A stretch of 60,496 nucleotides of DNA from Natrialba asiatica DSM 12278 (GTDB lineage Archaea; Halobacteriota; Halobacteria; Halobacteriales; Natrialbaceae). The number at the start of each line of letters is the position of its first letter. Within the stretch, counting starts at the first letter, position 1. Shown piece after piece: positions 3,592 to 58,485 of this stretch. The notes beneath the pieces were generated by a model that saw nothing but the letters and a program-made list of their open reading frames with translations, made no database searches and was not told the DNA's origin. A program made the position numbers and the translations under genes. Where the stretch lies: assembly GCF_000337555.1 (NCBI RefSeq), contig NZ_AOIO01000033.1, positions 63,953-124,448 of the forward strand, given 5' to 3'.

Positions 3592-6500
3592 AGTTGTTCA
3601 GCTCCGTCGTGCATGTCCCACTCGCGGACGTCGTACTGTTTCTGCGCGCCGAGACCGAGTTCGTCTTGCGGGTAGTCGATGAACGCCATGTCGAGGTCGT
3701 CGACGACTTGCTGGGTCGCCTTCTGGACGTGAACGACGCCCGATTTCGTCTCCTGCATCTGGGTCTCGGCGTCGAATCCGCTCGGCGTGATGATGTTCGC
3801 GCTCTCCCCGATCGCCAGCGGTTCGGTGTCCCCGGGCCAGTTGGGGCTCTGGTCCTCGCCGTGGAAGACGCCGCCCCAGTGGTAGGGAAGGAAGATCTCC
3901 TCGTTGTTGACACGGTTGGTCACCTTGGCCTTCACGAGGATCGATCCCTTGTCGGCCGAGGTGACGACGACGTGGTCGTCGCCGCCGACGACGTCGAGTT
4001 CCGTCGCCAGGCCGGGGCTGATTTCCGCGTACATGTGTGGCTGGCGGTCGGCGGTGTACTGGTTGTTCCGCGTCTCGGCACCGCCGCCCTGGTGTTCGAC
4101 CTGCCGGCCCGAGGTGAGGATCACGGTCCGGCCGCTCTCGGCGTCGCTTCCCAGTTCCGTGTGAACGGCCTCGGTCGCCCGTTGCTGGACGGTGGCATTG
4201 TTCTGGTCGAGCCGCCAGAAATTGGTCTGTTCGCCGTTTGCGGGCCATTCCTCGGTGAGATCCGGTCGCGGGCTCTCGACGGGTTCCCGGTGAACCGGCA
4301 CCGTGTCGAGGAAGTTCCAGACGACCGCCCGCGCTTTCCCGCGGCCGGTCGGCGGATCCGGCTGTGCGGCGTCGTACTCCTCGTACTCCGCGGGGTCGAC
4401 GTCCACCTCGTCGCCGTACTCGTCGGCGATCGCCTGCGCCGCATCGTATACCGATTCTTCCTCGTCGAGGGCCATCTCCACCGGGAGCGTCTGCGTCGAG
4501 GGGTCCGTCGGGTCGTCGGGAAGTATCGTCGAGTAGCCGGGGTACGATGGGACGCCCTCGATCTCCTGGTCGTCCCACCACGGTGCCTCGAACGATCCGG
4601 CGATCAGGTCCAGGCCGTCCTCGCCGTCCTGATCGTAGGTCTCCTGGAGCGGATACTCGTTATCGACGTTCATCTCGTCCCACTCCTCCGGCGTCGGCGC
4701 CTGCGTGCCCCAGTTCTCGCGGAAGTCGTGTCCCCCCTCGCGGGGATCGGCCTCCTTCGTCCAGATGATCGGCGAGCCGGGATGATCGTCGCCCCAGTAC
4801 GGCCAGGGGAGCGACCAGTAGTCGCCGTCGACCGGCGTCCCCGTGTTCTCGGCCCGCAGATCGTCCGTGCTGAACGCCCAATCGTACTCGTGGTGCTGTT
4901 GGAGTTTTTCGGGCGATTGCTGGTAGCCGATCGAGCGCGTTCCGAGGTTGATCTCCCGGAGCGCGTCTTCGTAGGAGGTCCGTCCGTTGTGAACCTCCGG
5001 GCCGGTTCCCCAGTCGAAGTGCTCGCCGAAGCCCATGTGCTGGGCCAACTCCTGGAAGATTTGCAGGTCCGGTTTCGAGTTGTGCGCCGGCGTCGCAACG
5101 CGCTCGCTCCACTGGACCGATCGGTGCGAGTTCGTCACGGACCGCACGTGCTCGTACTGACTCGAGGCGGGCAACAGGAGGACGTCGGCGTCGTCCGGCA
5201 GCGTGCCGGCGACGGCGGGGAAGACGTCGACGACGACCAACAGGTCCAGTTCCTCCATCGCCTGTTTCATCCGATCCATCTCGCTGATCGAGTTCGCCGA
5301 GTGTCCCCAGAAGAAGGCCATCTTCAACGGCTCCGGCTGGTACAGATCCGACTCGAGCAGTCGGTCTTCCTGCCCGAGCGCCGCTTCGTACCAGCGGGCG
5401 ACGGTCAACCCCCGCTGGAACATCATCGACTGCGGATCCGCATCGTCGATCGGTGCCTCCTCCTGGAGGCCCTGTTCTTCGCCCCCTTCCTCGTCGTCTT
5501 CCTCCTCGTCCGGTGGTTCACCTTCGTCTTCCGACTCCGATTCTCCCTCTTCGACCTCGGTCGGGACCTCGAGCCCCTCCCACATCTCGTCGGGCATCCG
5601 CTCGAATTTCTCGTACAGCTCCTCGAACGACGTGCTCCCGCTGGTCCAGGGGCTCCGATCCCAGACGTCCGTCCAGTGATCCCACGAGCCCGGCGAGTCG
5701 ACGCCGTAGTAGCCCGGCAGGATGCTCGAATCGACGCCGAGGTCGGTCGCGCCCTGCACGTTCGCGTGGCCGCGCATAACCTGCAGGCCGCCGCCAGACC
5801 GGGCCGCACTCCCGGTCGCGAGGCTGAACAGCGCGTACGAGCGGATGTTCTGGGTTCCGTTGTTGTGCTGGGTCCCGCCCATCGCCCACTCGACCTGAAT
5901 CTGTGGACTGTTCTCGACGATCAGGTCGCCGATCTCCTCGAGATCATCCTGCCCGATCCAGGTGATATCCGAGACTGTCTCGAGATCGTACTGCTCGAGT
6001 TCGGTCTCGACATCGGGCCAGCCCATCACGCGGTCGCCGAGGAACTCGTCGTCGAGTTCGCCCTGCTCACGGACGTAGTTGAGCAACCCGAAAACCAGCG
6101 CGACGTCCGTCCCGGGGCGGAGCCGGTAGAAGTAGTCGGCGTGGGCCGACGTCTTCGTGTACCGGGGATCGATCGAGACGATCGTTCCGCCGCGGGCCTG
6201 CCCTTCGAGGATGTGCTGCATCGCGATCGGGTGGGACTCGGCAGGGTTCTGCCCGAGGATGATGAGCAGGTCGAAGTTGCGATAGTCGTTGATCGTGTTC
6301 GTCATCGCGCCGAAGCCCCACGTATTGGCGAGGCCGGTGACCGTCGGCGAGTGACAGATCCGCGCCTGGTGGTCGACGTTGTTCGTCCCCATGAACGCCG
6401 CGAACTTGCGGCTGGCGTAGGCCGCCTCGTTCGAGTGGTGGGCGCTCCCCAGCAACATCACGCTCTCGCGGCTGAACTCGTCGATCGTCTCCTCCCAGGT

Positions 6501-31917: not shown

Positions 31918-33051
31918 TTACACCGGCGTGATCCACTCCCCTTCGACGTAGTGCTCGACCGACAGCGGTTCCGCGTCGAGCACGTCCACTGCGAGAGCTG
32001 TAGTTTCGACCGTCGTCGAATTCGTCTCGTTCCCGTCGCCGTCGGAGCCGGCGGAGCCATCGGAGCCGGCGGCGGCCCGCTCGAGGATCGTCCCGCCGTC
32101 ACCGACCGCGACGTCGTACGATGATCCCGTTGCGACGCCGTCCAATTTGGACTCGATTCCGGTTTCGTACTGTTGCCACTGGCCGGCGGATTGGCGTTCG
32201 TACAGTGCGCCGCCGTCGCCGGCCGCGAGGCCGTCGGTTCCGTCGCGGTCGATCGCGCGGATGGCCCGTCGGGCGTCGTCGACGACGTGAGGCGTCCAGC
32301 GGAAGCCATCGTAGCGGTAGACGATCCCGGAGCCGGCGGCGACGTTCACGTCTCGCTCGCCCCGACTCGCGAGATCGAAGAACGCGCCGCCCGCGAAGTC
32401 GATGCCGATCTGCTCCCACGTCACCCCGCCGTCGGCCGTTTCCGCGACGAACTGACTCGTGCTGCAGACGTGCCCCGCGTCCCGAGAATGACAGTCGATA
32501 GCAGGGATCGTCGAGCCGCCGCCGGGTTTGATTACCTCCGCGTACTCGATCGCGCCGCTGTCTTGACGGATGCCGACGAGCAGTTCGCCGGACCCGTTGA
32601 CGAAGTAGAGGCGCTCGTTCTCTCCGGCCGTTCCCCGTACGGTGCAGTCTTCCCACGTGCTCGTCTTCCCGTTCGGCGCGGAGTAATTCGTCAGGGTCTG
32701 CGTCTCGACGTCGTACTCGCCGATGACGCCGCTTCCGCCGACGAACCAGACCGCCCGTCCGTCGTCGGTGGCGTCGACGCCGGTCAGGCGGCGGCTTCGG
32801 GCTTGCGGGCCATACGCGACGACCGTCTGCCAGCCGTCTTCCCGCCGGGCGAGGACGTTGCCGTCGGCACCGACCGCGAACGGCCCCGCGGCGGTATCGA
32901 CGGCGTCGTTGAGCGCCTTTCCGGTCGGTGAATCAGCCTGTTGCCACTCGGTCTCGTTCGTTTGGGCGGCCGCCGATCCGAGCGCGAGAACGCCGGTTGC
33001 TGCCGAGACGGTCGCGAATTGAAGGACGTCGCGTCTGGTCTGTTCGGACAT
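31918..33051 (-). CDS. Tat-exported beta-propeller (BNR/YVTN-like) protein, family copy 1
   Basis: The 377-residue product begins with a Tat signal: TRRDVLQF at residues 5-12 and a hydrophobic segment ending in GSAAAQT around 25-31. No lipobox Cys follows, so it should be released or retained by charge. The mature part has several WD/BNR-like blades, e.g. AVGADGNVLARREDGWQTV, VWFVGGSGVIGEYDV and GNG-like turns. It is clearly paralogous to the proteins at 43670 and 56335 in this window: the SAP-x-x-KTSTWE, NGSGE(L/V)L and PGGGST(I)P blocks match. A low-complexity Ser/Gly tail (about 340-365) precedes the end. Confidence 0.85.
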   Translation of the reverse strand: MSEQTRRDVLQFATVSAATGVLALGSAAAQTNETEWQQADSPTGKALNDAVDTAAGPFAVGADGNVLARREDGWQTVVAYGPQARSRRLTGVDATDDGRAVWFVGGSGVIGEYDVETQTLTNYSAPNGKTSTWEDCTVRGTAGENERLYFVNGSGELLVGIRQDSGAIEYAEVIKPGGGSTIPAIDCHSRDAGHVCSTSQFVAETADGGVTWEQIGIDFAGGAFFDLASRGERDVNVAAGSGIVYRYDGFRWTPHVVDDARRAIRAIDRDGTDGLAAGDGGALYERQSAGQWQQYETGIESKLDGVATGSSYDVAVGDGGTILERAAAGSDGSAGSDGDGNETNSTTVETTALAVDVLDAEPLSVEHYVEGEWITPV

Positions 33052-38162: not shown

Positions 38163-38573
38163 TTACGGCCAGTCGTCTCGAACCGGTTCCGAGTCTCCCG
38201 TCTCCTCCTCGACGCTCGTCGCCAGCACCCAGTCGGCCGCCTCCGCGGCATCGTCGACGGAGAGGTACTCCCACTCGACGTCTTCGGCTAACTGTTCGTC
38301 CGCGTCGTCGATGCCGACGTAGACGTAGCGCTCGGTGTCGAACTGGTCTTTGACACCCGCGAGACTCTCCTCCTTGCCGCGCGGACCCGAGAAGAAGTCC
38401 TGCCGAATGCGATTCTTTCGGGTGAAGTTCGTCACGACGTACGTCGGCTTCTCGGAGACGACGCCGATGTACTCGGTCCAGCCGCGGGCGTCTTCGAAAA
38501 CGCTCTCCGGCGATGCGAACTCCTTCAACGCCTCGAGTTCGAACGCCAGGGTCATGTCGCTACCGCCGTTCAT
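38163..38573 (-). CDS. DUF7124-like protein, single-domain paralogue
   Basis: The 136-residue protein starts MNGGSDMTLAFELEAL; an ATG at residue 7 matches the family's MTLAF start. It aligns without a long gap to the domain at the C terminus of the gene at 54-842, sharing the (S/N)PE(S)VF-DA, YVVTNF, DFF(S)GPRG and AAEAADW segments. No cofactor site is seen. The family is widespread in haloarchaea and uncharacterised. It lies upstream of the DUF5815-like gene on the same strand. Confidence 0.7.
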   Translation of the reverse strand: MNGGSDMTLAFELEALKEFASPESVFEDARGWTEYIGVVSEKPTYVVTNFTRKNRIRQDFFSGPRGKEESLAGVKDQFDTERYVYVGIDDADEQLAEDVEWEYLSVDDAAEAADWVLATSVEEETGDSEPVRDDWP

Positions 38574-38727
38574 ACTGTCTCAAAACGGTGCACCGGGGAA
38601 AACGGCTTCGATACGTCGGACGACGATGCCGTGTCGCCTCGCCCTGTCGTCGTGCTATTACTACCTTGACACGAGACGGCCAAGGCGTCAAGTTGATAGC
38701 GAGAGAGTCCTTCGGATTAGCCTGACT

Positions 38728-39759
38728 ATGCCGCTCGCTTCAGCCGCGGCCGACGCAGCGCCGGCCGCCGGCCTCGAGTTCGCAGGCGACGCCGTCGCGC
38801 TCACACCCCCATCCCTCTCGGCGATCCTGAACTCGCCGCTGACGGACGCCCTCGCGTGGATCGCGATCGTCGCGTTCATGGGTGCGGCCCTCCTGCAGTG
38901 GTACGGGAACGTCGATTCGGCGCGCCTTCTGGCCGGGGGTGCCTGGGTCGTCTTTGGCGTCTTCTGGCTGACGATGGTGCCGTACTACTTCGCGGACGCC
39001 CAGAGTCCGATCAAGACGCTCCTCGCGCTCGCGGCGTTACCGCTGTCTGCGTACACTGCATACCTCCTCTATGGCGGTCGCACGTCGTTGCTCTTGCTCT
39101 CGAAGGCGGTCGCCTTTATGGGCCTGATCTACCTGCCAGCCGAGACGATACCGGTCGTTCGGACGTGGCTGATCGAGACGACGGCGGCCCAGACTCACTA
39201 CGGGATGGAGCTGCTCGGACACAGTCCCGGACTCATTGAAGGGGCGAACGGCTATCAGAGCAAGTTCGCCTTCGATCCGTCCGAGACGGTGACCGGCCGG
39301 ACGACCTACATCGTCCTCTCCTGTACCGGAATCGGGAGCATGGCGATCTTCGGCGGGCTGATCGCGTCGGTGACGGCACCGCTAAAACGCAAGCTCTCGG
39401 CGTTCACCATGGCGATCGGCGTCATCTGGGTTCTGAACCTCGGACGAAACATCTTCATCGGCCTGGCGTCGCCGTGGGGCTGGTTCCAACAAGAAATGCT
39501 GGTCTCGTTGCTGACGACCTACATGGGCGCCGAACCCGACCGCGTCTCGTTTCTCGTCTCCCACAACTACATCGCCCAATCGCTGTCGATCGTCGCCCTC
39601 CTCGGGATCACCTACCTCGTCGTCAAACTCGTTCCCGAGGTGCTCGCGCCCCTGGAAGACGTACTCTACATCCTGACCGGCACCGAGTACGACCTCTTCG
39701 AGGCCCTCGACGTCGAGGAGCGGCGGCCCGCGTACGCGCCGAGCGCCCTCGAACAGTAG
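38728..39759 (+). CDS. artA: Archaeosortase A
   Basis: The 343-residue, eight-helix membrane protein cleaves PGF-CTERM surface proteins, such as the S-layer glycoprotein, and joins them to a membrane lipid. The catalytic Cys199 lies in VLSCTGIGS and the conserved Arg240 in NLGRN, 41 residues apart as in the Haloferax volcanii enzyme (Cys173/Arg214). The third motif here reads VSHNYIA (about 277-283), with His279 at the position of a third conserved residue. The start at ATG 38728 is chosen because the longer frame is shadow coding. The gene implies that PGF-CTERM substrates are encoded elsewhere. Confidence 0.92.
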   Translation: MPLASAAADAAPAAGLEFAGDAVALTPPSLSAILNSPLTDALAWIAIVAFMGAALLQWYGNVDSARLLAGGAWVVFGVFWLTMVPYYFADAQSPIKTLLALAALPLSAYTAYLLYGGRTSLLLLSKAVAFMGLIYLPAETIPVVRTWLIETTAAQTHYGMELLGHSPGLIEGANGYQSKFAFDPSETVTGRTTYIVLSCTGIGSMAIFGGLIASVTAPLKRKLSAFTMAIGVIWVLNLGRNIFIGLASPWGWFQQEMLVSLLTTYMGAEPDRVSFLVSHNYIAQSLSIVALLGITYLVVKLVPEVLAPLEDVLYILTGTEYDLFEALDVEERRPAYAPSALEQ

Positions 39760-43669: not shown

Positions 43670-44653
43670 TCAGTACCGCCGCTCGATCACCATCCCCGAC
43701 TCGCCGACGACGAGTTCGGGGGCGCGAGACGTGCCGAGCGCGATCGCGAGCGGGTCGTTTTGGGCCGGCAGCGTCGTTTGCGTCGTCCAGCCGTCGAAAT
43801 CGCGCTCGAAGAGTTCGCCGGAGGAGGCGATCGCCAGCGCGTCGTAGCGGTTCCGGACCAGGGCCGTAATCGCCGTTTCGGCGAGCGACGCGCGCGACCA
43901 GTCGACGCCGTTGTAGGTCCAGACGGTGCCGTCGCCGCCGGCGACGGATACCGCCCCGGAATCGACCGCGGCGACGGCGTCGAAATCGATAGCCGCCGCA
44001 TCGATTCCGATACGCGTCCAGGTATCGCCGCCGTCCCGCGATTCGAACGCACCGCCGTCCGTGTCGACGGTGTAGACGTACGACAGCGGCGTGATATCGA
44101 CGTCGGTGACGCTCGAACCGGTACCGGGTTCGATCACCTCGGCCCACTCGACCGACGTGCCGTCGCGTTGCCCGTGGAGGAGTTCACCCGAGCCGTTGAG
44201 CGCCGTAATCCGTTCTTCGCCGGCGAGACCGGCGACGGCGACCGCCGTCCAGGAGGACGTCATCTCCTTCGGTGCCGAGAAGTCCACGGCCCGATCGGCG
44301 ACGACGTCGTAGAGGCCGAGTGCGCCGCTATCGCCGGCGGCCCAGACCGCGCGGCCGTTGTTCGTCACGGCGAGCGAACGAAGCGTATCGGCCGTCCCAC
44401 CGGGGCCGTTCGGAAGCGCGACGGTCCACGACTCGTCGCCTCGAGTCAGGACGATCCCGTCCTCGCCGACGGCGACGGCGCCAGTCGCCGTCGTTCCGAC
44501 GTCGTACAGCGTCGCGTCGGTCGGAACGGTGGCCGGCGTCCACTCGGCGGTCGTCTCGCCGCAGCCGGCCAGCGACGCCGAGACTGAAACCGCAGCCCCG
44601 CCGATCGCGGCGAGGACGGTCCGCCGACGGACTCGATCAGGCTCCATCGCCAT
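43670..44653 (-). CDS. Tat-lipoprotein beta-propeller, family copy 2
   Basis: The 327-residue protein has a Tat signal with RRRTVLAAIGG (about 9-19) and a lipobox SLAGC ending at Cys31, so it should be lipid-anchored outside the membrane. The mature part is built of BNR-like blades and shares the DSGALGLYDV, SAP...SSWTAVAV, NGSGELL and EWAEVIEPG blocks with the proteins at 31918 and 56335. It overlaps the upstream membrane-protein gene by 17 nt. No enzymatic motif is visible; it is more likely a binding protein. Confidence 0.85.
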   Translation of the reverse strand: MAMEPDRVRRRTVLAAIGGAAVSVSASLAGCGETTAEWTPATVPTDATLYDVGTTATGAVAVGEDGIVLTRGDESWTVALPNGPGGTADTLRSLAVTNNGRAVWAAGDSGALGLYDVVADRAVDFSAPKEMTSSWTAVAVAGLAGEERITALNGSGELLHGQRDGTSVEWAEVIEPGTGSSVTDVDITPLSYVYTVDTDGGAFESRDGGDTWTRIGIDAAAIDFDAVAAVDSGAVSVAGGDGTVWTYNGVDWSRASLAETAITALVRNRYDALAIASSGELFERDFDGWTTQTTLPAQNDPLAIALGTSRAPELVVGESGMVIERRY

Positions 44654-46133
44654 CGGTCTCGTCCTCCCGTTCCTGCTCGTGAACTCGAGTGCTCGACGGG
44701 CCGTTGTTTAGCCGCTGGTCCGGAGCGGTCGCCGCCGGTTCGCTGTCGGCGGTTTCGATCCCGGCTTCCGACGGGCGGCTCGGCGGGGACGACGGCGTGA
44801 ACGCGCCGGGGGCGGACGTGCGTTTGAGGACCGCGGAGATGCGAACGACGTACGCGAAGAGGACACCGAGGGGACTGAACGCGACCGCGAGCGCGAGGCT
44901 CACGAGGACGAGCAGCGGGCCCTCGTGGGCGACCGGCGGATACCCGCTCGCGTAGATCATGATGACCAGGGTCGAGAGCAACAGCGCCGCGGTGCCGCTG
45001 TAGGTGATCCACCGGGACAGCCGCGCGAGGTCGCGCTGGAGGTAGATCGTCGTGAAGTACTGTCGCGTGGCGTCCGCGGCGACGAACAGTTCTCGGAGTT
45101 CGGAGAGCAGTTCCGACGCCCGGTCGGACAGTTCGTCGTCGAACCGTCGCCGAAACCGCCGTGCCTCGGTGGCGGCACCCGCGTAGTCGTGATCGATCGT
45201 CGGCAAGACGACGTCGAAGACGGAGTCCGTCCCGCCGGTTAGCGTCGACGAGAGTTCACTCGTGTGGTCGCGGGTTTGCGATGCGAAGCGGCGAATGGAC
45301 TCGAAGGCGTCCATCGAACAGCCCGCAGTTTGGTCGTCGGTCGCGGTTCCGTCGTCGGATTCACATTCGGAGACGAGCGCGTCGGCGCGGCTGCCGAGCG
45401 TTCCGGCCAGGCGGGCGAGAAACGGTGCGGGATTGGTCGGGCTCACGCCGTCCCCTTCCGTCTGTTGCTCGATACGCGTGCGAAACTCCTGGACGCCGTC
45501 GATGCGATCCGTCAGTCGGTCCGGCGTGCCGAACAGCCGCGAGATGATCAACTGGTTGACCGCGACGACGATCGGAATGAACGAGAACAGGCCCGCGATC
45601 ATCGTGCTGAACATCGTCGTCACGAAGCGACTCTCGCGAACCCCGATGACGTCGCTCACTCCGAGCAAAAGCGCGATGACGAAGATACCGCCGACGAATC
45701 CGCCGGCGATCACGCGACGGTCGCCCTCGAGTAAGAGCCAGCGGTGGCTGTCTCGACGGGATTTCGTTTCGGTGAACAGCCGGATGCCGATTCGAGCGCC
45801 GACCCAGAGCAAGCGCCCACCCACGAGGAGTCCGGCGACGGTCAGCCGAACGACGTAGACCGCAAGGGAGAGACCGAGCGATGACCCCTCATCACTGGAG
45901 CGATCGGACTCGGCGTGCGACCGCTCGGAGGGGGGTGTCGAGTCGTCAGCGGGGGTGTCGGCCGTTGAGTCGGCGTCATCGTGGACAGTTTCGTCGGCCG
46001 TCCTGGAGTCGCCGCGGTCGGGCGCACCGAGTTCAGTCGAGTCCCGTGCTGTGTTGGGGGGCGTTTGCGAGGCCGCAGTGTCCGGGACTGAGTCGGTCGA
46101 TGTGGGATCGGGAGATGAGGGGTCGTCAGTCAT
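44637..46133 (-). CDS. Large membrane protein with acidic tails, overlapping the propeller lipoprotein gene
   Basis: The 498-residue protein has an acidic, Ser/Thr/Pro/Glu-rich N terminus (about 1-85), then hydrophobic helices at about 88-110, 135-155, 165-195, and a second pair after a helical middle (about 365-390 and 400-425), with a disordered tail. The middle region (about 210-360) is charged and helical. The gene's 3' end overlaps the start of the propeller lipoprotein by 17 nt, so the two are probably made together, perhaps as a complex. No family is recognised. Confidence 0.7.
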   Translation of the reverse strand: MTDDPSSPDPTSTDSVPDTAASQTPPNTARDSTELGAPDRGDSRTADETVHDDADSTADTPADDSTPPSERSHAESDRSSDEGSSLGLSLAVYVVRLTVAGLLVGGRLLWVGARIGIRLFTETKSRRDSHRWLLLEGDRRVIAGGFVGGIFVIALLLGVSDVIGVRESRFVTTMFSTMIAGLFSFIPIVVAVNQLIISRLFGTPDRLTDRIDGVQEFRTRIEQQTEGDGVSPTNPAPFLARLAGTLGSRADALVSECESDDGTATDDQTAGCSMDAFESIRRFASQTRDHTSELSSTLTGGTDSVFDVVLPTIDHDYAGAATEARRFRRRFDDELSDRASELLSELRELFVAADATRQYFTTIYLQRDLARLSRWITYSGTAALLLSTLVIMIYASGYPPVAHEGPLLVLVSLALAVAFSPLGVLFAYVVRISAVLKRTSAPGAFTPSSPPSRPSEAGIETADSEPAATAPDQRLNNGPSSTRVHEQEREDETDGDGA

Positions 46134-47267: not shown

Positions 47268-47834
47268 TCACAGTAGCGTGAGTGCATCGGCCTCAGACAG
47301 TGAATAGGTGGGAAACGTTCGATTGAGAAGCGAGCGGACGAGGTGGCGGATCACCGCGAGTTGGTCCCTGCCGGTGTCCGTACACGAGGTCCCACAGCGG
47401 CCGATCAATCCGTCCGTCCCGTCGAGGTACGTCAGGCGGCCACCGCAGTTCTGACACCGCGGCTCGACGTGGCTGGTCATCCACTCGACGGCGAACTCGT
47501 CACGAGCGAGTCGCTCGCCGAGTGCGTACCAGACGATGACGTCGCGCTCACCTCGGCCCGACGCCGCACGCTTCAACCGCGTGAGCGTGACCGCAGCGCG
47601 GGTGTACAGTTCGTCGTCCTGGCCGGCGTGTCGTTGGTGACAACGCCGGAAGTACGTCAGCAGTGCTCGCTTCGACGACCGTCGCTTTCCCGTCGTCAGT
47701 GGCGTCTCGAGAGCGACGTTCTGCAAACAGCCGTCTGCCTCCGGAGCGCGTTCCGGACGTCCGTGTTCGTCGTAATGGCGCTCTCGCGAGAGAGACGCAC
47801 CGCTGGTCGGACAGAATGCGTGTTCACCAATCAT
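47268..47834 (-). CDS. Zinc-ribbon-like hypothetical protein
   Basis: The 188-residue protein has a C-terminal cysteine set: Cys-x2-Cys near residue 130, then Cys-x3-Cys about 17 residues later (RCGTSC), consistent with a zinc ribbon. An N-terminal CPTSG and basic helical middle with RRSSKR suggest contact with nucleic acid. No known family. It diverges from the membrane protein at 48048, sharing an AT-rich region with nested palindromes (47964-47999). Confidence 0.6.
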   Translation of the reverse strand: MIGEHAFCPTSGASLSRERHYDEHGRPERAPEADGCLQNVALETPLTTGKRRSSKRALLTYFRRCHQRHAGQDDELYTRAAVTLTRLKRAASGRGERDVIVWYALGERLARDEFAVEWMTSHVEPRCQNCGGRLTYLDGTDGLIGRCGTSCTDTGRDQLAVIRHLVRSLLNRTFPTYSLSEADALTLL

Positions 47835-48980: not shown

Positions 48981-50546
48981 ATGCTCTCAGAGATACACCT
49001 GCTCACCGACCAGGCCAGTCTCTGGCCCGCGTCCGGCCACCAGTTCGTCTCGTTGCTCCGACTGCTGCTCGTCCAGAGCCACCTGGAATCCGGGTCGGCC
49101 ATCATCAACACCACCCCCACCACCAACACTACCACCACCGCCACCACCATCGCCATCGTCGTCTCGGCCGACCTCGGCTTCGTCTTCGGACCGATCTCCG
49201 GCGGCGGACTCGACCTCGCGGCCAGACTCGTCGGGCTGCTCGGTGCCTTCCTACTCCAGCTCGTGACGGCCCTGGTCGTCGCACTCGAGATGGCCTGGGA
49301 CACCTGGTGGGCGCTCGTCCTCGGCTTTACGATCACCGGTGCCATCCAGGAGTTCGTCGACGAGGATCAGCTCACCGACTACCTCGGCGACGACGGCTGG
49401 CGGGAGATCGGCTACGGAACCGCCTTCGGCACGGCCTCCTCGAGTTGCTCGTTCTCCGCGGTCGCGATGACCCGGTCGCTGTTCACCAAGGGTGCCTCGG
49501 CCGCGTCCTCCCTCGGGGCGTTCCAGTTCGCGAGTACGGATCTCGTGCTCGAACTCGCACTCGTCGTCCTGACGCTGCTCGGGTGGCAGTTCGCCGTCGC
49601 AGAGATCACCGGCGGATTAATCGCCGTCGTCGTCCTCGGCATCATTTACCGGCGATTCGTCCCGCCCTCGTGGGTCGAGCGAGCACGTTCCCACGCCCGC
49701 GCGCTCGACGAAACCGAATGCGCGACCTGCGGCATGGCCGCCCCGCCGACCGACGAGGAGACGATCACGCGAACGTTCGACGGCGAGCACCGATACTTCT
49801 GCTGTGGCGGCTGTCTCAACGCGTACGACCCGGCCGACGACCGCGAGGCCGTTACCGCCGGCCCCGAACTCCTCTCGGGCGACCGCTGGCAAAGTGCGAT
49901 CACGAACACGATGAGCGAGTGGGACATGCTCTGGCGGGACATCCTCTTCGGATTCCTCCTCGCCGGCCTCCTGGCCGCGTTCGTCCCGGACGCCTGGTGG
50001 ACGGCCCTCTTCGGGGTCGGTCCCGAGGGAAGCCTCACGCGCCTCCTCTCGAACGTCGTGCTCGGAGCCATCGTCGGCGTGCTGACGTTCCTCTGCTCGG
50101 TCGGCAACATCCCCTTCGCCGTCGTCCTCTGGCAAAACGGCGTCTCGTTCGGCGGCGTCCTCGCGTTCATCTTCGCCGATCTGCTGATCCTTCCGCTGGT
50201 CCGAACGTACCACCGCTACTACGGCCTTCGCATGGCCGGCGTCATGTTCGCCGCGTTCTTCGCCGCCGCCGTCATCGCCGGCTTCCTCGTCGAACTCGTC
50301 TTTTCCGGAGTCGGTCTCGTTCCGTCACCCGGTACGTCCGGCGGGACGGTCCCTGGAGCGTACACGTCCCTGTTCAACGTCGTTACGCTCCCCCTCTTCG
50401 CCGTGCAGGTGTACGTCGCCCTCGAGCCGGACCAACGCGTCCGCCTCGGCAACCGAATCGCACCGCACGTCGCGGGCGTTCTCTACCACGCCTACGACCT
50501 CGTGAGACGAGTCGCGTACGCGCTCGAATCGCGAGGCCTGAAGTAA
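48981..50546 (+). CDS. Permease (COG0701-type) with internal YHS/TRASH metal domain
   Basis: The 521-residue protein has two halves of four or so helices, with the permease signature GTASSSCSFSAVA (about 150-162) and a related FLCSVGNIPFA segment in the second half. Between the halves (about 240-290) lies a cysteine set, C247/C250 (CATCG) and C274/C275/C278 (FCCGGC), the layout of a YHS/TRASH domain that binds Cu or other soft metals. The N-terminal stretch has a Thr/Asn tract (about 43-56) from an ACC simple repeat. It is a candidate heavy-metal exporter. The start at ATG 48981 is chosen because the upstream extension does not resemble the family. Confidence 0.8.
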   Translation: MLSEIHLLTDQASLWPASGHQFVSLLRLLLVQSHLESGSAIINTTPTTNTTTTATTIAIVVSADLGFVFGPISGGGLDLAARLVGLLGAFLLQLVTALVVALEMAWDTWWALVLGFTITGAIQEFVDEDQLTDYLGDDGWREIGYGTAFGTASSSCSFSAVAMTRSLFTKGASAASSLGAFQFASTDLVLELALVVLTLLGWQFAVAEITGGLIAVVVLGIIYRRFVPPSWVERARSHARALDETECATCGMAAPPTDEETITRTFDGEHRYFCCGGCLNAYDPADDREAVTAGPELLSGDRWQSAITNTMSEWDMLWRDILFGFLLAGLLAAFVPDAWWTALFGVGPEGSLTRLLSNVVLGAIVGVLTFLCSVGNIPFAVVLWQNGVSFGGVLAFIFADLLILPLVRTYHRYYGLRMAGVMFAAFFAAAVIAGFLVELVFSGVGLVPSPGTSGGTVPGAYTSLFNVVTLPLFAVQVYVALEPDQRVRLGNRIAPHVAGVLYHAYDLVRRVAYALESRGLK

Positions 50547-50560
50547 GTCGCTTCACACCC

Positions 50561-52042
50561 ATGACGACATCCCAACCACAGTCCCGATCCCAGGGCCAGT
50601 CCCGGTCTCGGCCCCAGCCACGGCCACGACCATCACCCGGCGGACGGTTCGATCCCGTTCGGATCGTCCTGCTCGTCGCCCTCGTCACGAGCCACGGGTT
50701 GATCCGCGTCGCCGAACGGTACTTCCCCGAGTTCCTGTCAGCACTTGGCTACGGGCCGATCGTCACCGGACTGGTCGTCAGCATCGGTCTCGGCGTGACC
50801 GTCATCATAACGGCATCCGCGACCGCCGGGCTGAACTCTGGCGACGAGACAGAAAGTGGCGATAGAAACGCCGAAACCGGCGGCTTCCCGGCACGGGTAG
50901 TCGCAGTCGTCTCGGTGCTGTTTGCGACCCTCGGACTGTTCGTCTGGACGGGCGCACCGACACTCGATGCGCTCCTCGGCACGCCGCTTTCGGCGCTCGG
51001 CTGGCTCGCGGTCGGGGTCGTGCTCCTCCAGGCCTGGCACAGTTTCGGCCCGGTGCGGACCCTCTGGCCGATCGACACCAGGATCGTCGGTCGAAAGACG
51101 CGATCGACCCGAACCGAAGCCGACGAGTTCACGCCGTCGGGAGCCGATCGAGAGCGCGACGCTCGTGCGGGCACCGTTATCGGCGCACTTGGGATCGGTG
51201 CCGGCGCGCTGATCGTGACTGCAGCGATCGCGATCGTTGGCGGCGTCAAAACCGGGTTTTCGATCGTCGCAGCGACGGGTGCGGCGGTCACGCTCGTCGC
51301 AGCGATTACGCGGGGGGTCATCGGCGATACCGACCGGCTTCCGCTCGTCGGTCGCATCGAAGCGCCGAGTGCGGCGAGGGGTCGGGTTCCCGATTCGGTC
51401 GCGTCGGTTCGCCGGGCGGTCGTCGCCCTCTCCGACCGGCGGCGCTGGACGATCACCGGCGACGCGCTCGTCAGGCTGGCGCTCGTGGGGAGTACGCCGT
51501 ACCTGGTGTTGCTGTTCGTCGAGGAACAGCCGCTTTCGCTCTCGGTCGGCGGGCGGTCGCTGATGCCAGCCGCGATGTTCGGCGCGTTCGTCCTCGCGGA
51601 GGCGGGCGGGGCGCTTCTCGGCGCGATAGCCGCTCCGCGACTCGTCTCTGCGGTCGATCGGCGGTGGCTCCTGACCCTCGGTCTCGCGGGCGTCTCACTG
51701 GTTCCGATGGCCCTCGTCGCGACATCGTCCGTCGCCATCGTTGCGCTCCTGTTTGCCGTGCTCGGCTGCCGGACCGCGATCGAACCGCTCAGACCGACCG
51801 TCGGACCGCGCATCAGACCGAGCCACGACGTGAGTCCCGATGCGGACGCAACGGCGCTCGGTCTCCCGCCACCCGAGCCTCTCCAGACGGCGGTTCGGAT
51901 CGCACTCGTCCCGGCCCCGTTCGTCGGCGGCCTTCTGTACGCGATCCACCCCGTTGCGGCGTTTACCGTCGCAACGACCGTCTCTCTGCTCGGGGTTCGC
52001 GAACTGCTCAGATCGTTCAGTTTCGAGCGAATAGGCGACTGA
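50561..52042 (+). CDS. MFS-like multi-helix membrane protein
   Basis: The 493-residue product begins 14 nt after the permease stop, so they share an mRNA. The N terminus has a Gln/Ser/Arg/Pro-rich stretch, and then about twelve hydrophobic helices. A long hydrophilic loop lies in the middle. The second half has helix pairs with GXXX(G/A) spacing typical of MFS carriers, but no named motif is clear. The N-terminal reading overlaps out-of-frame with the upstream permease and is rejected before ATG 50561. Confidence 0.75.
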   Translation: MTTSQPQSRSQGQSRSRPQPRPRPSPGGRFDPVRIVLLVALVTSHGLIRVAERYFPEFLSALGYGPIVTGLVVSIGLGVTVIITASATAGLNSGDETESGDRNAETGGFPARVVAVVSVLFATLGLFVWTGAPTLDALLGTPLSALGWLAVGVVLLQAWHSFGPVRTLWPIDTRIVGRKTRSTRTEADEFTPSGADRERDARAGTVIGALGIGAGALIVTAAIAIVGGVKTGFSIVAATGAAVTLVAAITRGVIGDTDRLPLVGRIEAPSAARGRVPDSVASVRRAVVALSDRRRWTITGDALVRLALVGSTPYLVLLFVEEQPLSLSVGGRSLMPAAMFGAFVLAEAGGALLGAIAAPRLVSAVDRRWLLTLGLAGVSLVPMALVATSSVAIVALLFAVLGCRTAIEPLRPTVGPRIRPSHDVSPDADATALGLPPPEPLQTAVRIALVPAPFVGGLLYAIHPVAAFTVATTVSLLGVRELLRSFSFERIGD

Positions 52043-52105: not shown

Positions 52106-53683
52106 ATGTCCCACTCATCCGATACTGACGGCACTGACGGCACTGGCGGCACTGGCGACGCTGAACTCGAAGCGACAAGCGGGCCCCTCGAAACGGGTCG
52201 CCGACTGATCGCCGTCGACCACGTTCGACTCGGACGGTGGTTCCTCGTCTTCGCGCTGGTGATGGGACTCTGGGGCGGCCTCGACGCCGTGCTCCTTCGG
52301 ACGACGCTCGTCACGCCGACGCTGGATCACTGGTCGGCCGACGTCTACAGTTCGCTCTTTACGACCCACGGGTTGACGATGTTGTTCCTGTTCGCGGTCC
52401 CTGTGATATGGGGATTTGCGTACGCGACGATTCCGTCGTTGATCCGGGCCGAGCGAACCGCGTTTCCCGCCCTTGCAGCGGCGGCGTTCTGGCTGCAGAT
52501 CCCGGCTGCGATACTGGTTCGAGCCGGAACGATCGGCAGTGCACTCGACGTGGCGGGACTCGACCCCGTCGCGATCGGCTGGACGATGTACCCGCCGATG
52601 AGCGTCACATCGTCGAACCCCGCCGTCGACGCGCTGGTCGCCGGCCTCCTGTTCGTTGCTATCAGCACGTCGCTGACCGCGGCGGACCTCGTCGTCACGG
52701 TCTGTCGTCGGCGGACGATTCCGTGGAGCGACGTCGACACGTTCACCTGGACGGTGGTAACGAGTGCGGCGATGGCGGTCGTCGCCTTCCCGGTCCTCGC
52801 CGGTTCGCTTGCGCTCTTGCTCCTCGAACGGGCGGCTGGGGTCGGGCTCCTCGTCGGTCGGAGCGGCCCGATGGTCTGGTTGAACCTGTTCTGGTTCTTC
52901 GCTCATCCGCTGGTGTACATCCTGGTGTTGCCACCGATGGGCATCACCAGTCACGTGCTACCGCGGTTTGCCGGGCGGCGGCTGTTCGGCCGCCGGTCGG
53001 TCGTCTACTCGACGTTTGCGATCGGCATCCTCTCGTTTACCGTCTGGGGACACCACCTGTTCATGGCCGGGATGAGCGTCAGCGTCCGCGCCGTGTTCAT
53101 GTTCGTGACGCTGGCGGTCGCCGTCCCGAGTTCGGCGAAGCTCTGTACGTGGCTCGGCACGCTGTGGGGTGGTGCAATCCAGCACACAGCGCCGATGATC
53201 GCGAGCATCGCAGCGATCGCCTTCTTCATTGTCGGCGGCGTGACCGGCGTCTTTCTCGCGGTGGCTCCGATCAACGTCCTCTACAACGGGACGTACTACG
53301 TCGTCGCTCACTTCCACATGATGCTCGTCGGGTTCGTCGCGTTCACGCTCGTCGCCGGGGGGTACTACTGGTTTCCGTTGCTTACCGGGCGGTGGTACGA
53401 TCCGACGCTCGCTCACCTGCACGTCTGGCTCACCATCGTCGGAATCATCGTGACCTTCGGCGCGCTCTTCGTCGTCGGCTTCGCAGAGTTACCGCGACGA
53501 ATCGCGACCTACCCGCCCGCGTTCGCGCCGATCCACCAGCTTGCCACCGTCGGAGCCTACGTCATCGCCGTGGGCCAACTCGTCTTCCTCCTCAACATCG
53601 GTCGATCGCTCTGGGTCGGCGAGCGCGCCGGCGACGATCCGTGGGGCCTCGCCGACGAGCCGTCACACGCACGAGAATGGTGA
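52106..53683 (+). CDS. Heme-copper oxidase subunit I, without subunit II nearby
   Basis: The 525-residue membrane protein has all ligand histidines: His88 and His404 (low-spin heme), His402 (heme a3) in VAHFH, His267 (HPLVY) with cross-link Tyr271, and His316/His317 (GHH) for CuB. The K-channel Lys345 is present, but the usual D-channel Glu (HPEVY) is Leu269, as in B-type oxidases such as ba3. No subunit II with a CuA site is seen in the 10 kb around it. Its start follows the MFS-like gene by 63 bp. It should reduce oxygen if a partner is supplied elsewhere. Confidence 0.88.
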   Translation: MSHSSDTDGTDGTGGTGDAELEATSGPLETGRRLIAVDHVRLGRWFLVFALVMGLWGGLDAVLLRTTLVTPTLDHWSADVYSSLFTTHGLTMLFLFAVPVIWGFAYATIPSLIRAERTAFPALAAAAFWLQIPAAILVRAGTIGSALDVAGLDPVAIGWTMYPPMSVTSSNPAVDALVAGLLFVAISTSLTAADLVVTVCRRRTIPWSDVDTFTWTVVTSAAMAVVAFPVLAGSLALLLLERAAGVGLLVGRSGPMVWLNLFWFFAHPLVYILVLPPMGITSHVLPRFAGRRLFGRRSVVYSTFAIGILSFTVWGHHLFMAGMSVSVRAVFMFVTLAVAVPSSAKLCTWLGTLWGGAIQHTAPMIASIAAIAFFIVGGVTGVFLAVAPINVLYNGTYYVVAHFHMMLVGFVAFTLVAGGYYWFPLLTGRWYDPTLAHLHVWLTIVGIIVTFGALFVVGFAELPRRIATYPPAFAPIHQLATVGAYVIAVGQLVFLLNIGRSLWVGERAGDDPWGLADEPSHAREW

Positions 53684-54048: not shown

Positions 54049-54375
54049 ATGGCATCCACCACAAGCACCGACGTTGCACTGATGCTCCTGCAGTTGATCG
54101 CACTAACAATTCCACCAGCCGTCGTCCTGATCGACCAGCTCCGCCGCTCGCAGAACCTCGAATGGACCATCCGAAAACTGAGCTTCGGACTCGTGTTCTC
54201 GTGTGTCACCCTCCTGCTCGGCGGCGCAGTCGCCGTCCTCCTGTACTTCCTGACGGCAGTCTCGCTGCCAATCACCCTCATTGCAGGGCTGCTCCTCGTT
54301 CTGCTCGGCCTCCTCCCGCTCGGGACGTTCGTCCTCGTCCTCTACCGAGAACACCGGAAGGAACACGGTCCCTGA
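54049..54375 (+). CDS. 108-aa membrane protein
   Basis: A small protein with three hydrophobic segments (about 8-26, 43-67 and 72-98) and a charged C-terminal end (REHRKEHG). It follows a 365-bp gap and precedes, by 10 bp, the tRNA-like element upstream of the PadR gene. The family is unknown. No signal peptide is visible. Confidence 0.65.
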   Translation: MASTTSTDVALMLLQLIALTIPPAVVLIDQLRRSQNLEWTIRKLSFGLVFSCVTLLLGGAVAVLLYFLTAVSLPITLIAGLLLVLLGLLPLGTFVLVLYREHRKEHGP

Positions 54376-54385
54376 TCCGATTCTC

Positions 54386-54432
54386 GCTACGTCCGGGCTC
54401 GGCCGGGAGTGGGTTCGACCCCCACACGTAGC
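54386..54432 (+). other. tRNA-like minihelix: perfect acceptor-type stem plus T-arm
   Basis: A 7-bp stem GCTACGT (54386-54392) / ACGTAGC (54426-54432) encloses a T-arm-like hairpin: stem GTGGG (54409-54413) / CCCAC (54421-54425) with a 7-nt loop TTCGACC (54414-54420), the canonical T-loop form. The T-stem abuts the 3' acceptor strand exactly, as in a real tRNA. Between the 5' strand and the T-arm there are only 16 nt (a GC-rich short hairpin, CCGG...CCGG), so D- and anticodon arms are absent. It is a possible tRNA remnant, integration-site trace, terminator or functional tRNA mimic. It lies 31 nt before the PadR start. Confidence 0.45.
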
Positions 54433-54462
54433 TTCGGCGGTCTTCCCGCCGATGATGCACCG

Positions 54463-54837
54463 ATGTGTAGGAACATCCCCACCAACCACGACACCGACGA
54501 CAACGACGAGCACGAATCGAGTATCGACGGGTCGACACCCCCTCGCCCCCTGACGAACCTGACCGGGTTCAAGCGCGACCAGCTATTCGTCATCCGACTG
54601 CTGGCCGAACGCAACCCCCACGGGCTCGTGATCAAAGACAAACTCGACTGCTACTACGACGAGGACATCAACCAGGGCCGGCTTTACCAGAACCTCAGTG
54701 AACTCGTCGATGAGGGGTACGTCGAAAAGCACCCACTCGACGGACGAACCAATGCCTACCGGCCGAGCACGCGCGCCAACAGGCGACTCGAAGAACACCA
54801 CGAGTGGGAACGTCACTGTCTCTTCTGTGACCCCTGA
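54463..54837 (+). CDS. PadR-like winged-helix transcription regulator
   Basis: With the ATG at 54463 the product has 124 residues. The core LTGFKRDQLFVIRLLAERN...HGLVIKDKL...YYDEDINQGRLYQNLSELVDEGYVEK (about 28-100) matches haloarchaeal PadR-type regulators: the helix-turn-helix, then the wing with the GRT/Y motif. The N terminus is acidic and disordered. An HCLFC pattern at the end might bind metal. It lies upstream of the pseudo-GDH/propeller pair on the same strand, with a 169-bp gap, and could control it. A longer frame would extend into the tRNA-like element. Confidence 0.8.
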   Translation: MCRNIPTNHDTDDNDEHESSIDGSTPPRPLTNLTGFKRDQLFVIRLLAERNPHGLVIKDKLDCYYDEDINQGRLYQNLSELVDEGYVEKHPLDGRTNAYRPSTRANRRLEEHHEWERHCLFCDP

Positions 54838-55006: not shown

Positions 55007-56338
55007 ATGACTACTCCACACGATACTTCAACCGACACGACCAGCCGAACCGCTCCCGCACTCGATGCTCCGTGGAGCCACCTTCGTACCGCCGCCCACC
55101 GTCTCTCGGTCCCGGACGACATCGAACAGCGGCTCCTGTACGCGCGCCAGCGCCAGCAAATCGCAATTCCGTTCGAGCGCGACGACGGAACTATCGACGT
55201 TCGAGCAGGGTATCGCGTTCGCCACGACGACGTTCGCGGTCCCTACATCGGCCCGCACCGCTACGTCCCCGGACTGACAATCGGCGACTGTGCCGGACTC
55301 GCGGTCGCAACTGCCGTAACCGCCGCACTCGCCGACGTTCCGTTCGGCGGCGCAGCGGGCGGCATCGACTGCGATCCGGAAACGCTCTCGTGGGACGAAC
55401 GCGCCAGACTCACGCGCGCCTACGCACGTCGGATTACCGACATCGGGCCGAACAGCGACGTTCTCGTTCCCGACCTGGGAACCGACGAACGCACCATGGC
55501 TCGCGCCGCCGATGCCGTCGCCGAACACGTCGACGGCCCCCACACCGCGACAGCCGCCGGGAAGCCGGCCGTTCTCGGCGGCTCACGAGAGTTCACCTGT
55601 GCCGGCGGCCACAGCGTCGCCCACGTCGTCCGAGATATCCTCGAAACGGATCTCAACCGATCGCTGTCGGACGGAACTGTCGCCGTGTACGGCACCAGTA
55701 CCGTCGGTGCGACGGCTGCGCGCTTGCTCGACCGCTGGGGCAGCACTATCGTCGCACTGTGTAGCGATCACGTCGGGCTTGCTGTCGACGGCGATAGCGA
55801 CGAGGAGACCGACGATGAAGACGGCGACAGCGACGACGCTACCGACGACGGCATCGATACGACCGTCGCACCCAGCTACCTCGACGGACCGGGTGCGATC
55901 GACGAGTTCAGCGGCGGCACGATGACCGGAACCGAGAACGTCCTCGAAGCGGATGTCGACGTGCTGGTTCTCGCCGGATCGGGGACGGCGGTGACCGCCA
56001 GGAACGCGGAGACGATCCGGGCGGATCTCGTCGTCGAAGGCGCGTACGGCGCGGTGACCGCCGGCGGGCAACGCGTTCTCGAGGAGCAGGATGTCGCCGT
56101 CGTGCCGGCCGTGCTGTCGCTCGCCGGCAAACTATCGGCTGCGAGTCTCGAATGGCGTCGCCACGTCGGCCGCAGCGAGATGAGCGACACCCGCATGGCG
56201 AACGAACTCTCGTATGCGGTTATCGACGCCGTTTCCGACGTTCGGGCCCATCGCGTGCGCCGCGACGTGGGCTGGCGCGACGGCGCGTACGAACTCGGGC
56301 TCTCGCGGCTCGTCTCGGCTCACGAGGTGGTTCGATGA
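55007..56338 (+). CDS. Glutamate dehydrogenase homologue lacking the catalytic lysines
   Basis: With the ATG at 55007 the protein has 443 residues and aligns to Glu/Leu/Phe/Val dehydrogenases. It has the GYRVRHDD/GPY segment (about 69-80), the PFGGAAGG turn (112-119), the VPDLGTDERTM segment (Asp156 kept), and the AGKPAVLGGS motif. But the residues that should be lysines are Ile81 (GPYKGG), Thr105 (the MTWK position) and Ala117 (GGAKGG). In the dinucleotide loop, GFGNVG reads GTSTVG. An acidic insert lies near 265-290. Amination or deamination therefore seems unlikely; a binding or regulatory role is possible. It overlaps the next gene by 4 nt. Confidence 0.82.
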   Translation: MTTPHDTSTDTTSRTAPALDAPWSHLRTAAHRLSVPDDIEQRLLYARQRQQIAIPFERDDGTIDVRAGYRVRHDDVRGPYIGPHRYVPGLTIGDCAGLAVATAVTAALADVPFGGAAGGIDCDPETLSWDERARLTRAYARRITDIGPNSDVLVPDLGTDERTMARAADAVAEHVDGPHTATAAGKPAVLGGSREFTCAGGHSVAHVVRDILETDLNRSLSDGTVAVYGTSTVGATAARLLDRWGSTIVALCSDHVGLAVDGDSDEETDDEDGDSDDATDDGIDTTVAPSYLDGPGAIDEFSGGTMTGTENVLEADVDVLVLAGSGTAVTARNAETIRADLVVEGAYGAVTAGGQRVLEEQDVAVVPAVLSLAGKLSAASLEWRRHVGRSEMSDTRMANELSYAVIDAVSDVRAHRVRRDVGWRDGAYELGLSRLVSAHEVVR

Positions 56339-57486
56339 TCGATCGTCTCGACGACTCGCTCAGCGACGCAATCGAGTGGCTGACCGAGATCGGTCCCGAG
56401 ATCGAACCGTCTGCCGACTCCGAATCCGATTCTGACTCCGAATCCGAACCCGAGTCGGAAGCCGCCGATTCCCCATCGAACTCCGAATCCCAGGACGAGG
56501 CTGTGCCGCGGTCGGACGGCGGTCGCGAGACCGATCCGCCGAGCGCCGAAACGGCCGCTGACTGGGAAGAAGCCGACTCGCCGACCTCGAGAACACTGCA
56601 CGGCGTCATCCACGGCGCGGACGGTGCCTACGCCTGTGGCGAGGGCGGTATCCTGTTGCACCGGCGCGACGACGGGTGGCAGACACTGATCGAGCGCGGT
56701 CCGGGCGTCGCGGACAACACGTTGCGGACGATCGACGCAACAGCCGACGGCTGTCGACTCTGGTTCGCCGGTGACAGCGGTGCACTCGGGTACTACGACG
56801 TCGCCGACGGCTACTTAAGCGACTACTCGGCACCGGGGGAAAAGACGAGCACCTGGGAGGGAATCGCCGTGTCCGGGCCGACCGGCGAGGAGCGCATCCG
56901 CATCGCGAACGGGTCCGGCGAAGTTCTCGACTGTACCGTCGAGGACGGCTGTCCGGTCTGGGGCGACGTCGTCGAACCCGGCGGCGGGTCGACGATACCC
57001 GGCCTAACCGCCGGTCCGGACGGGTTCTACGCCATCGACACCAGCGGCGGCGCGTACTACGAGGATGCAAACGGCGAGTGGGAACGAATCGGCGTTCGCA
57101 ACGCCGAAGTCGACTTCTACGACATCTGGGCCGGCGATGAAACCGTCTTCGTCGCCGGTGCCGACGGCATCGCGTACCGGTACGACCCGCACTGCGAGAA
57201 CTGGACTCCGATCAACGTCGGACAGGGTGCGCTCCAGTCCATCCAGGTGGCCGAGGGCAGCGACACTGCCGTCGCCGTCGCAACCGGCGGACGCGTCTAC
57301 GAGCGCATCGAAAGCATCCGCTGGAAGGAACGGGACACGCCGACGGAACAATCCCTCCTCGATCTCGCCCTCGCCCGCCGGCGGTCGGACGACGAGGGAC
57401 TGGCGACCGTTCCCGTCGACATCGCCGTCGGTGCTGGCGGCACCGTTCTCGAGCGCCAGCGAGACCGTTCGGACACCTCGAACTAA
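56335..57486 (+). CDS. Cytoplasmic beta-propeller (BNR/YVTN-like), family copy 3
   Basis: The 383-residue protein starts at an ATG overlapping the stop of the GDH homologue (56335-56338). No signal peptide is present. An acidic Ser/Glu/Asp stretch lies at about 26-80, followed by blades such as GGILLHRRDDGWQTLIERGPG, FAGDSGALGYYDV, NGSGEVL and EPGGGSTIPG. These match the proteins at 31918 and 43670 along their length, so the family has three members in three predicted locations. The coupling to the pseudo-GDH suggests a shared complex. Confidence 0.85.
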   Translation: MIDRLDDSLSDAIEWLTEIGPEIEPSADSESDSDSESEPESEAADSPSNSESQDEAVPRSDGGRETDPPSAETAADWEEADSPTSRTLHGVIHGADGAYACGEGGILLHRRDDGWQTLIERGPGVADNTLRTIDATADGCRLWFAGDSGALGYYDVADGYLSDYSAPGEKTSTWEGIAVSGPTGEERIRIANGSGEVLDCTVEDGCPVWGDVVEPGGGSTIPGLTAGPDGFYAIDTSGGAYYEDANGEWERIGVRNAEVDFYDIWAGDETVFVAGADGIAYRYDPHCENWTPINVGQGALQSIQVAEGSDTAVAVATGGRVYERIESIRWKERDTPTEQSLLDLALARRRSDDEGLATVPVDIAVGAGGTVLERQRDRSDTSN

Positions 57487-57666: not shown

Positions 57667-58485
57667 ATGCTCCCAGACAATCCACTCTCGTTCACCGCTC
57701 GTATCGATTCCGACTCGCTCCCCATCGCCGAACTCGCCACCCTCTCGCTCTCGGCACTCCTTTGGCTCGTCCTCTTCGAAGGCTGGCTTCCCGACCTCGG
57801 CCCCGCTCCCGCTGAACTCGAGGCGCCGATGGCCGCCCCCGGCGTCCCCGAAGCGATGGCGACGGCAAACGGGCTCTCGGGTACCGTCGCGTACCTGCTC
57901 ATGTGGGGCACGATGATGCTCGCGATGATGCTCCCGTCGCTGATTCCGGTCGTTCGACAGCATCTCGATGACGTGTGCCAGAGTCCGACCGTCGCCGCTC
58001 CGTCGATCGCCGGGTTCCTCGGCGGCTACGCGCTCGTCTGGACGGCGATCGGTGCAGTGCCGCTCGCGGTCGAACTGCTCGTCTCGATTCACGAGTTCTC
58101 GACCGCGTCCGCGTTCGGTCTCGGTGCGGGGACGGTCCCCGTCGCCGGACTGCTCGCGTTCGCCGGCGGTTACCAGCTGACGCCGTTCAAACGTCGGGTG
58201 CTCTCGCGGTGTGCGTCCTGCCAGTCGATTCCGCACTGTCCCAACGTGAACCGGATGGTTCGCAGGGGGATCTCCTACGCGACGAACTGCGTCGCGTGCA
58301 CCTGGCCGCTGTTCGCGCTGATGGTCGCGCTCGGGTCGATGAATTTCCTCGTGATGGTCGGCCTGACGCTCGTCGTCTCGATCGAGCGCCTGACGCCGGA
58401 CGGCGAGCGCGTCGCGTTCGCTATGGGCGTTCCGTTGATCTGCGCCGCCGCGTTTTCGCTGCTGTTCGGCGTTCCGACGGTCTGA
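57667..58485 (+). CDS. DUF2182-family membrane protein, predicted metal-binding
   Basis: The 272-residue product has about six hydrophobic helices and the family's MWGTMMLAMMLPS segment (about 78-90), followed by a YQLTPFKRRVLSRC segment with a Cys pair (CASC) and later CVAC. DUF2182 proteins are annotated as predicted metal-binding membrane proteins; the substrate is unproven. The start at ATG 57667 is preferred over short out-of-frame ORFs. It may belong with the permease and oxidase block upstream, given the metal-binding features. Confidence 0.78.
   Translation: MLPDNPLSFTARIDSDSLPIAELATLSLSALLWLVLFEGWLPDLGPAPAELEAPMAAPGVPEAMATANGLSGTVAYLLMWGTMMLAMMLPSLIPVVRQHLDDVCQSPTVAAPSIAGFLGGYALVWTAIGAVPLAVELLVSIHEFSTASAFGLGAGTVPVAGLLAFAGGYQLTPFKRRVLSRCASCQSIPHCPNVNRMVRRGISYATNCVACTWPLFALMVALGSMNFLVMVGLTLVVSIERLTPDGERVAFAMGVPLICAAAFSLLFGVPTV

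Follow-up and report, generated by a model that had tools for sequence, protein, structure and literature searches.

A conserved glutamate dehydrogenase-fold pseudoenzyme candidate encoded with a beta-propeller in a haloarchaeal heme-copper oxidase operon

We analyzed a stretch of 60,496 nucleotides from Natrialba asiatica DSM 12278 (hereafter, the window) and found that it encodes a glutamate dehydrogenase (GDH) homologue whose catalytic residues have been replaced. We regard this protein, denoted pGDH (55007–56338, forward strand, 443 amino acids), as a pseudoenzyme candidate, an assignment supported by the loss of these residues throughout a conserved family under selection, from which we infer a loss of activity. 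Its gene overlaps that of a cytosolic beta-propeller, and both genes reside in an operon organized around a heme-copper oxidase subunit I. In the reading that we prefer, to which we give about even chances, pGDH would bind the propeller and act as a non-catalytic scaffold of GDH fold, and the pair would support the assembly or regulation of an oxidase/copper module, following the capture of a GDH gene by the operon.

The similarity of pGDH to GDHs extends over almost the entire protein, which is covered by the domains PF02812 (108.9 bits) and PF00208 (93.9 bits). The protein thus comprises a dimerization domain and a Rossmann domain in the order found in GDHs, which is the arrangement of the Glu/Leu/Phe/Val dehydrogenase (ELFV) superfamily. 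The closest PDB structure by sequence is a glutamate dehydrogenase (E = 1.3e-51), and the structure predicted for pGDH has a GDH fold at moderate confidence (pLDDT 68, pTM 0.74), with GDHs as all of its best PDB matches. The coordinates, reading frame, and motif order reported for this gene in a preliminary description were, hence, correct. Among NCBIfam models, the top match was the haloarchaeal GdhB (NF041398), aligned over the full length at 334.3 bits; this is well below the 620-bit cut-off of that equivalog, and pGDH is, therefore, not a member. It shares with GdhB the two Pfam domains and the predicted fold, but differs from it in the loss of catalytic and substrate-binding residues and in its operon context. 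Searching the N. asiatica genome with profiles of the same Pfam family yielded seven matches, four of them partial or weaker.

Pairwise and multiple alignments with solved and haloarchaeal GDHs place Ile81, Thr105, and Ala117 of pGDH at the positions of Lys89, Lys113, and Lys125, the lysines known from Clostridium symbiosum GDH, in the numbering of that enzyme. Similarly, GTSTVG occupies the position of GFGNVG in the NAD loop. Both substitutions had been proposed in the preliminary description and were borne out by the alignments. The possibility that the lysines were merely shifted was ruled out, as neither the pairwise nor the multiple alignments contained a lysine adjacent to any of the three positions. 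The residues listed as lost were correct as given, but the list was incomplete: Ser380 is replaced by Ala, and the Asn of the NAGGV motif is missing as well.

To define the family, we searched 119 related genomes and then 391 genomes of the class. We recovered 19 orthologous pGDH–propeller pairs, all from Natrialbaceae, and one additional, more distant pair. A contig-wide search identified as hosts Natrialba taiwanensis, N. aegyptia, three Natrinema species, Halobiforma nitratireducens, Haloterrigena salina, Natronoglomus mannanivorans, Halovivax sp., and Saliphagus infecundisoli. The window derives from a close relative of N. taiwanensis and N. aegyptia (96–97% identity), and in Natrinema zhouii the locus is plasmid-borne. 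Lys89, Lys113, and Lys125 are absent from all 19 orthologues, position 125 being Ala in every one of them; the Ser380-to-Ala replacement and the loss of the NAGGV Asn are likewise found in 19 of 19. The catalytic Asp165 of the PD(L)GT motif had been described as kept, which holds for the N. asiatica protein but not for the family as a whole, where this position is D in nine, G in six, E in three, and N in one of the 19 sequences. The other haloarchaeal GDHs of the same genomes retain all these residues (84 of 84), indicating that their loss in pGDH is not a matter of chance; the three lysines were lost together in 19 of 19 pGDHs and in none of the 84 other GDHs. Nine further GDHs that seemed to lack the lysines turned out to be antisense frames rather than GDHs.

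The gene and its propeller had been viewed as an isolated pair, but both are members of an eight-gene operon on the forward strand. The operon begins with an ArsP-like permease (49221–50546; PF03773, also matching a Cu/Zn efflux family below the cut-off), followed by an MFS-like transporter (50633–52042; weak PF07690), the heme-copper oxidase subunit I (52106–53683), a small membrane protein of 108 amino acids that has no Pfam match and is conserved in the operon (54049–54375), and a PadR-like regulator (54409–54837; PF03551, 36.2 bits), whose presence upstream of the GDH homologue had been recognized previously. Then come pGDH, the propeller, and a DUF2182/PpoB2 protein (57667–58485), for which the Pfam name is copper chaperone. 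The start codons of the permease, the transporter, and the regulator are unsettled. The divergent genes on the reverse strand encode a second, exported propeller (see below), a cysteine-rich hypothetical protein conserved with the operon (47268–47834), a membrane protein with family matches to DUF389/TIGR00341 (46195–47271), and a predicted membrane protein with no Pfam match (44637–46133). A homologue of the latter (2995–4470 of neighborhood L208) is labeled in RefSeq as a cbb3-type oxidase subunit I, a label that is probably wrong.

The order of the operon genes is identical in nine neighborhoods of 20 kb and in four more (L100–L102 and L113), and in the other pGDH pairs an oxidase gene is found at most 5 kb from the propeller. 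In Haloprofundus salinisoli, a gene encoding a heavy-metal-associated domain adjoins the permease. Judging by family names and weak matches, copper appears to be a recurring theme of the operon. No nitrogen-metabolism gene recurs in the pGDH neighborhoods.

The oxidase matches PF00115 with 396 bits, and the histidines of heme and CuB, the Tyr, and the Lys of the K channel are retained throughout. In these respects, it resembles subunit I of A-type heme-copper oxidases, from which it differs by the absence of an adjoining subunit II gene and by the replacement of the Glu of the HPEVY motif in nearly all pGDH operons. The only two PF00116 matches in the genome lie on another contig (C23), and a subunit II encoded elsewhere may act in trans with the operon oxidase. 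In the A-type oxidases that have been studied, the D proton channel ends at the Glu of HPEVY. The oxidases of the pGDH operons (the window, L068–L076, L100–L102, and L113) carry HPLVY, or HPQVY in one case, except for L074, in which HPEVY is kept. It is also kept in all operons that have no GDH, an intact GDH, or the half-way form described below. The loss of this Glu and the loss of the GDH active site thus fall in the same lineage; on these data they represent one event, which is no proof of a link between them.

The cytosolic propeller (56335–57486, forward strand, 383 amino acids) is predicted to adopt a seven-bladed fold, and the best PDB matches of its model are seven-bladed propellers (E = 1e-11). 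A short helix followed by a disordered, acidic linker forms its N-terminus. Its match to PF23366 (HVO_0234-like) is weak and covers only a partial stretch (29.4 bits, with a gathering cut-off of 27). As noted in the preliminary description, the gene starts within the stop codon of pGDH: its ATG overlaps the TGA in an ATGA sequence (56335–56338). This arrangement is invariant, with a four-nucleotide overlap, either ATGA or GTGA, in all 19 orthologous pairs, and makes the equal synthesis of the two proteins likely. In Haloferax volcanii, 45.2% of the gene pairs spaced this closely specify members of a single complex, eight times the share among wider pairs (5.6%; PMC10666635). Four-nucleotide overlaps are, however, frequent among haloarchaeal genes, and over half of the pairs concerned do not form complexes.

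Two additional propellers of the same family are encoded in the window (43670–44653, reverse strand, and 31918–33051), both with Tat-type N-termini, that of the first being lipoprotein-like. This first, exported paralogue stands behind the membrane protein gene conserved with the oxidase operon; it is labeled YCF48-related in RefSeq and matches YCF48 models weakly. While this label and these matches liken the family to YCF48-/HVO_0234-type propellers, the partner of pGDH differs from them in having no signal peptide, in barely reaching the PF23366 cut-off, and in its weak similarity to YCF48.

The same operon is found in several other haloarchaeal families with no GDH gene within 20 kb, in 12 complete neighborhoods and one cut short by the end of its stretch (L103, L105–L109, L111, L193–L196, L198, and L199). 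The oxidases of these operons show 48–53% identity. Since most oxidase operons have no GDH, their core function does not require one. Most of the GDH-less operons do carry the cytosolic propeller, so that it belongs first to the oxidase operon rather than to the GDH as such, which weakens the notion of a GDH-specific partner. One neighborhood of this set, on a plasmid of Haladaptatus halobius (L194), includes two partial copies of the operon within 20 kb, with two MFS-like genes and a single oxidase gene, which lies at the edge.

GDHs in which the NAD loop is normal and every catalytic residue is present were detected in the operon in three genomes of two other families: G406 and G428 of family f17, and G206 of family f5 (Haloferacaceae), where an operon GDH is present in one of 170 genomes. 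In G206, the stop codon of the intact GDH overlaps the GTG start of the propeller (GTGA, as read from the junction). A half-way form is encoded in another genome of Natrialbaceae (G072): Lys89, Lys113, Lys125, and Asp165 are replaced by Leu, Gln, Met, and Gly, respectively, the NAD loop, the Asn, and Ser380 are intact, and the gene has no overlap with the propeller.

In an unrooted maximum-likelihood tree, from which long rows were left out, a single branch (support 100/99.8) separates the operon GDHs from the housekeeping GDHs. When the tree was rooted with an outgroup and G206 was excluded, the operon GDHs formed one clade (99/97). Because intact operon GDHs exist and the operon GDHs branch together, the simplest reading is that the operon captured a GDH whose active site was later lost. 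A single capture is favored by these sequences but not proven, since the intact operon GDHs of the unrooted tree are positioned between pGDH and the housekeeping GDHs rather than as one clade, with G206 nearer to the housekeeping GDHs than G406 and G428, and the branches are long.

We considered several other explanations for the conservation of pGDH. The emptied cleft could bind a different small molecule, making pGDH a ligand sensor that signals via the propeller. Indeed, the cleft seems rebuilt rather than randomly altered, as new invariant residues were established in it (K89-G-G to x-G-P, K125A, C106A, and S380A). However, the residues at position 89 (I, L, V, or A) and at position 113 (S, T, A, R, or G) vary among the orthologues, roughly half of these have a degenerate NAD loop, and the neighborhood points to no ligand; we thus view a sensor of this kind as unlikely. 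The preliminary description had proposed a pseudoenzyme and propeller acting as a sensor or scaffold, perhaps for nitrogen status, under putative PadR control. This proposal is supported as regards a conserved pseudoenzyme candidate of GDH fold that is invariably coupled to a propeller, but not as regards the nitrogen role. Nitrogen sensing at the old glutamate site is unlikely, because the residues that bind the carboxylates of glutamate/2-oxoglutarate (Lys89, Lys113, and Ser380) are precisely those lost in every orthologue, and the surroundings are those of an oxidase operon.

A second explanation casts pGDH as a regulatory subunit in mixed assemblies with the housekeeping GDHs. There is a precedent in Thermus thermophilus, where the inactive, regulatory GdhA and GdhB make up a heterohexamer that has a further, AMP-sensing partner (PMC9570180). 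In agreement with this, other GDHs are also encoded in the pGDH genomes, among those listed, and the dimerization domain of pGDH is more conserved than its Rossmann part (mean pairwise identity of 70% vs. 62%). Yet the pGDH gene is located inside the oxidase operon and not beside a catalytic GDH. Moreover, out of 184 columns that are invariant in other haloarchaeal GDHs, 76 are kept in pGDH, 19 are now fixed for a different residue, and 89 were released, many of the latter in the N-terminal half. Taken together, we find such mixing quite improbable. GdhA, which works through its partners, is nevertheless the closest precedent for an inactive GDH subunit. The resemblance, drawn at the level of description, is that of a GDH-fold subunit without activity, as presumed for pGDH; the difference is that GdhA partners a catalytic GDH, whereas pGDH is encoded with a propeller.

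An active enzyme of altered chemistry would explain the retention of the fold and of many glycines, as well as the clear purifying selection, but the catalytic side chains of the superfamily are all lost, the Asp varies among orthologues, and neither the Lys113 nor the Lys125 position has gained a conserved acid, base, or nucleophile, leaving this explanation with little probability. A pseudogene is ruled out by dN/dS values of 0.08–0.27 in ten orthologue pairs (NG86, pairwise), equal to or below those of the adjoining propeller, and by frames that are open in 19 of 19 orthologues. Given the same values and a mean column identity of 71% over the family, it is very improbable that pGDH is decaying and retained solely for the sake of translating the downstream propeller gene, even though the catalytic residues are gone, many once-invariant columns were released, and the overlap makes translation of the propeller depend on pGDH.

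In the scaffold reading, which we prefer, a GDH gene would have been taken up by a haloarchaeal operon encoding a heme-copper oxidase subunit I together with metal-transport and copper-chaperone-like proteins. In a lineage of Natrialbaceae, the captured GDH would then have lost catalysis and kept its fold. GDHs are hexamers, and the fold could hence serve as a ready scaffold, to which the propeller translated directly behind pGDH would bind; on the cytoplasmic side, the pair may then help to assemble or regulate the oxidase/copper module. A part in assembling or regulating the oxidase, along with its copper supply, is suggested by the operon itself and by analogy to the weakly similar YCF48-type propellers, Ycf48 being reported to act in the assembly of photosystem II, a membrane redox complex (PMC10403576). 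The moderate fold model of pGDH and the predominance of oxidase operons without a GDH speak against the scaffold. More tentatively still, a non-catalytic pGDH hexamer with propellers attached to it might sit under an orphan oxidase that lost the HPEVY Glu in the same lineage, forming a respiratory accessory complex of a new kind, with living relatives displaying the steps from an operon-borne active GDH to a pseudoenzyme; we doubt this fuller picture more than we credit it.

Non-catalytic roles of GDHs have been reported in Bacillus subtilis, where RocG and GudB reportedly also act on the regulator GltC (PMC6794564). RocG, however, combines this additional role with enzymatic activity. The open-access papers searched contained nothing joining haloarchaea, glutamate dehydrogenase, and a beta-propeller, no GDH pseudoenzyme as a topic, and no association of DUF2182 with copper, all of which is weak evidence of novelty. 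Pseudoenzymes as a kind are already known; what is new here is the fold that hosts this one, its operon, and the survival of intermediate forms. GDH is a textbook enzyme, and we found no description in the papers searched of a conserved family in which the loss of all its catalytic lysines is fixed. At a single operon position, a natural series runs from no GDH through a GDH with all catalytic residues and a half-way form to one that is fully emptied, so that the emergence of a pseudoenzyme can be tested in successive steps. The results also indicate that haloarchaea possess an operon, as yet undescribed, centered on an orphan heme-copper oxidase subunit. For annotation, pGDH genes labeled “Glu/Leu/Phe/Val dehydrogenase” in these genomes should not be taken as nitrogen metabolism. 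Elsewhere in the window, an archaeosortase A gene (38335–39759; TIGR04125, 312 bits) is listed with a start that lies upstream of its likely true start.
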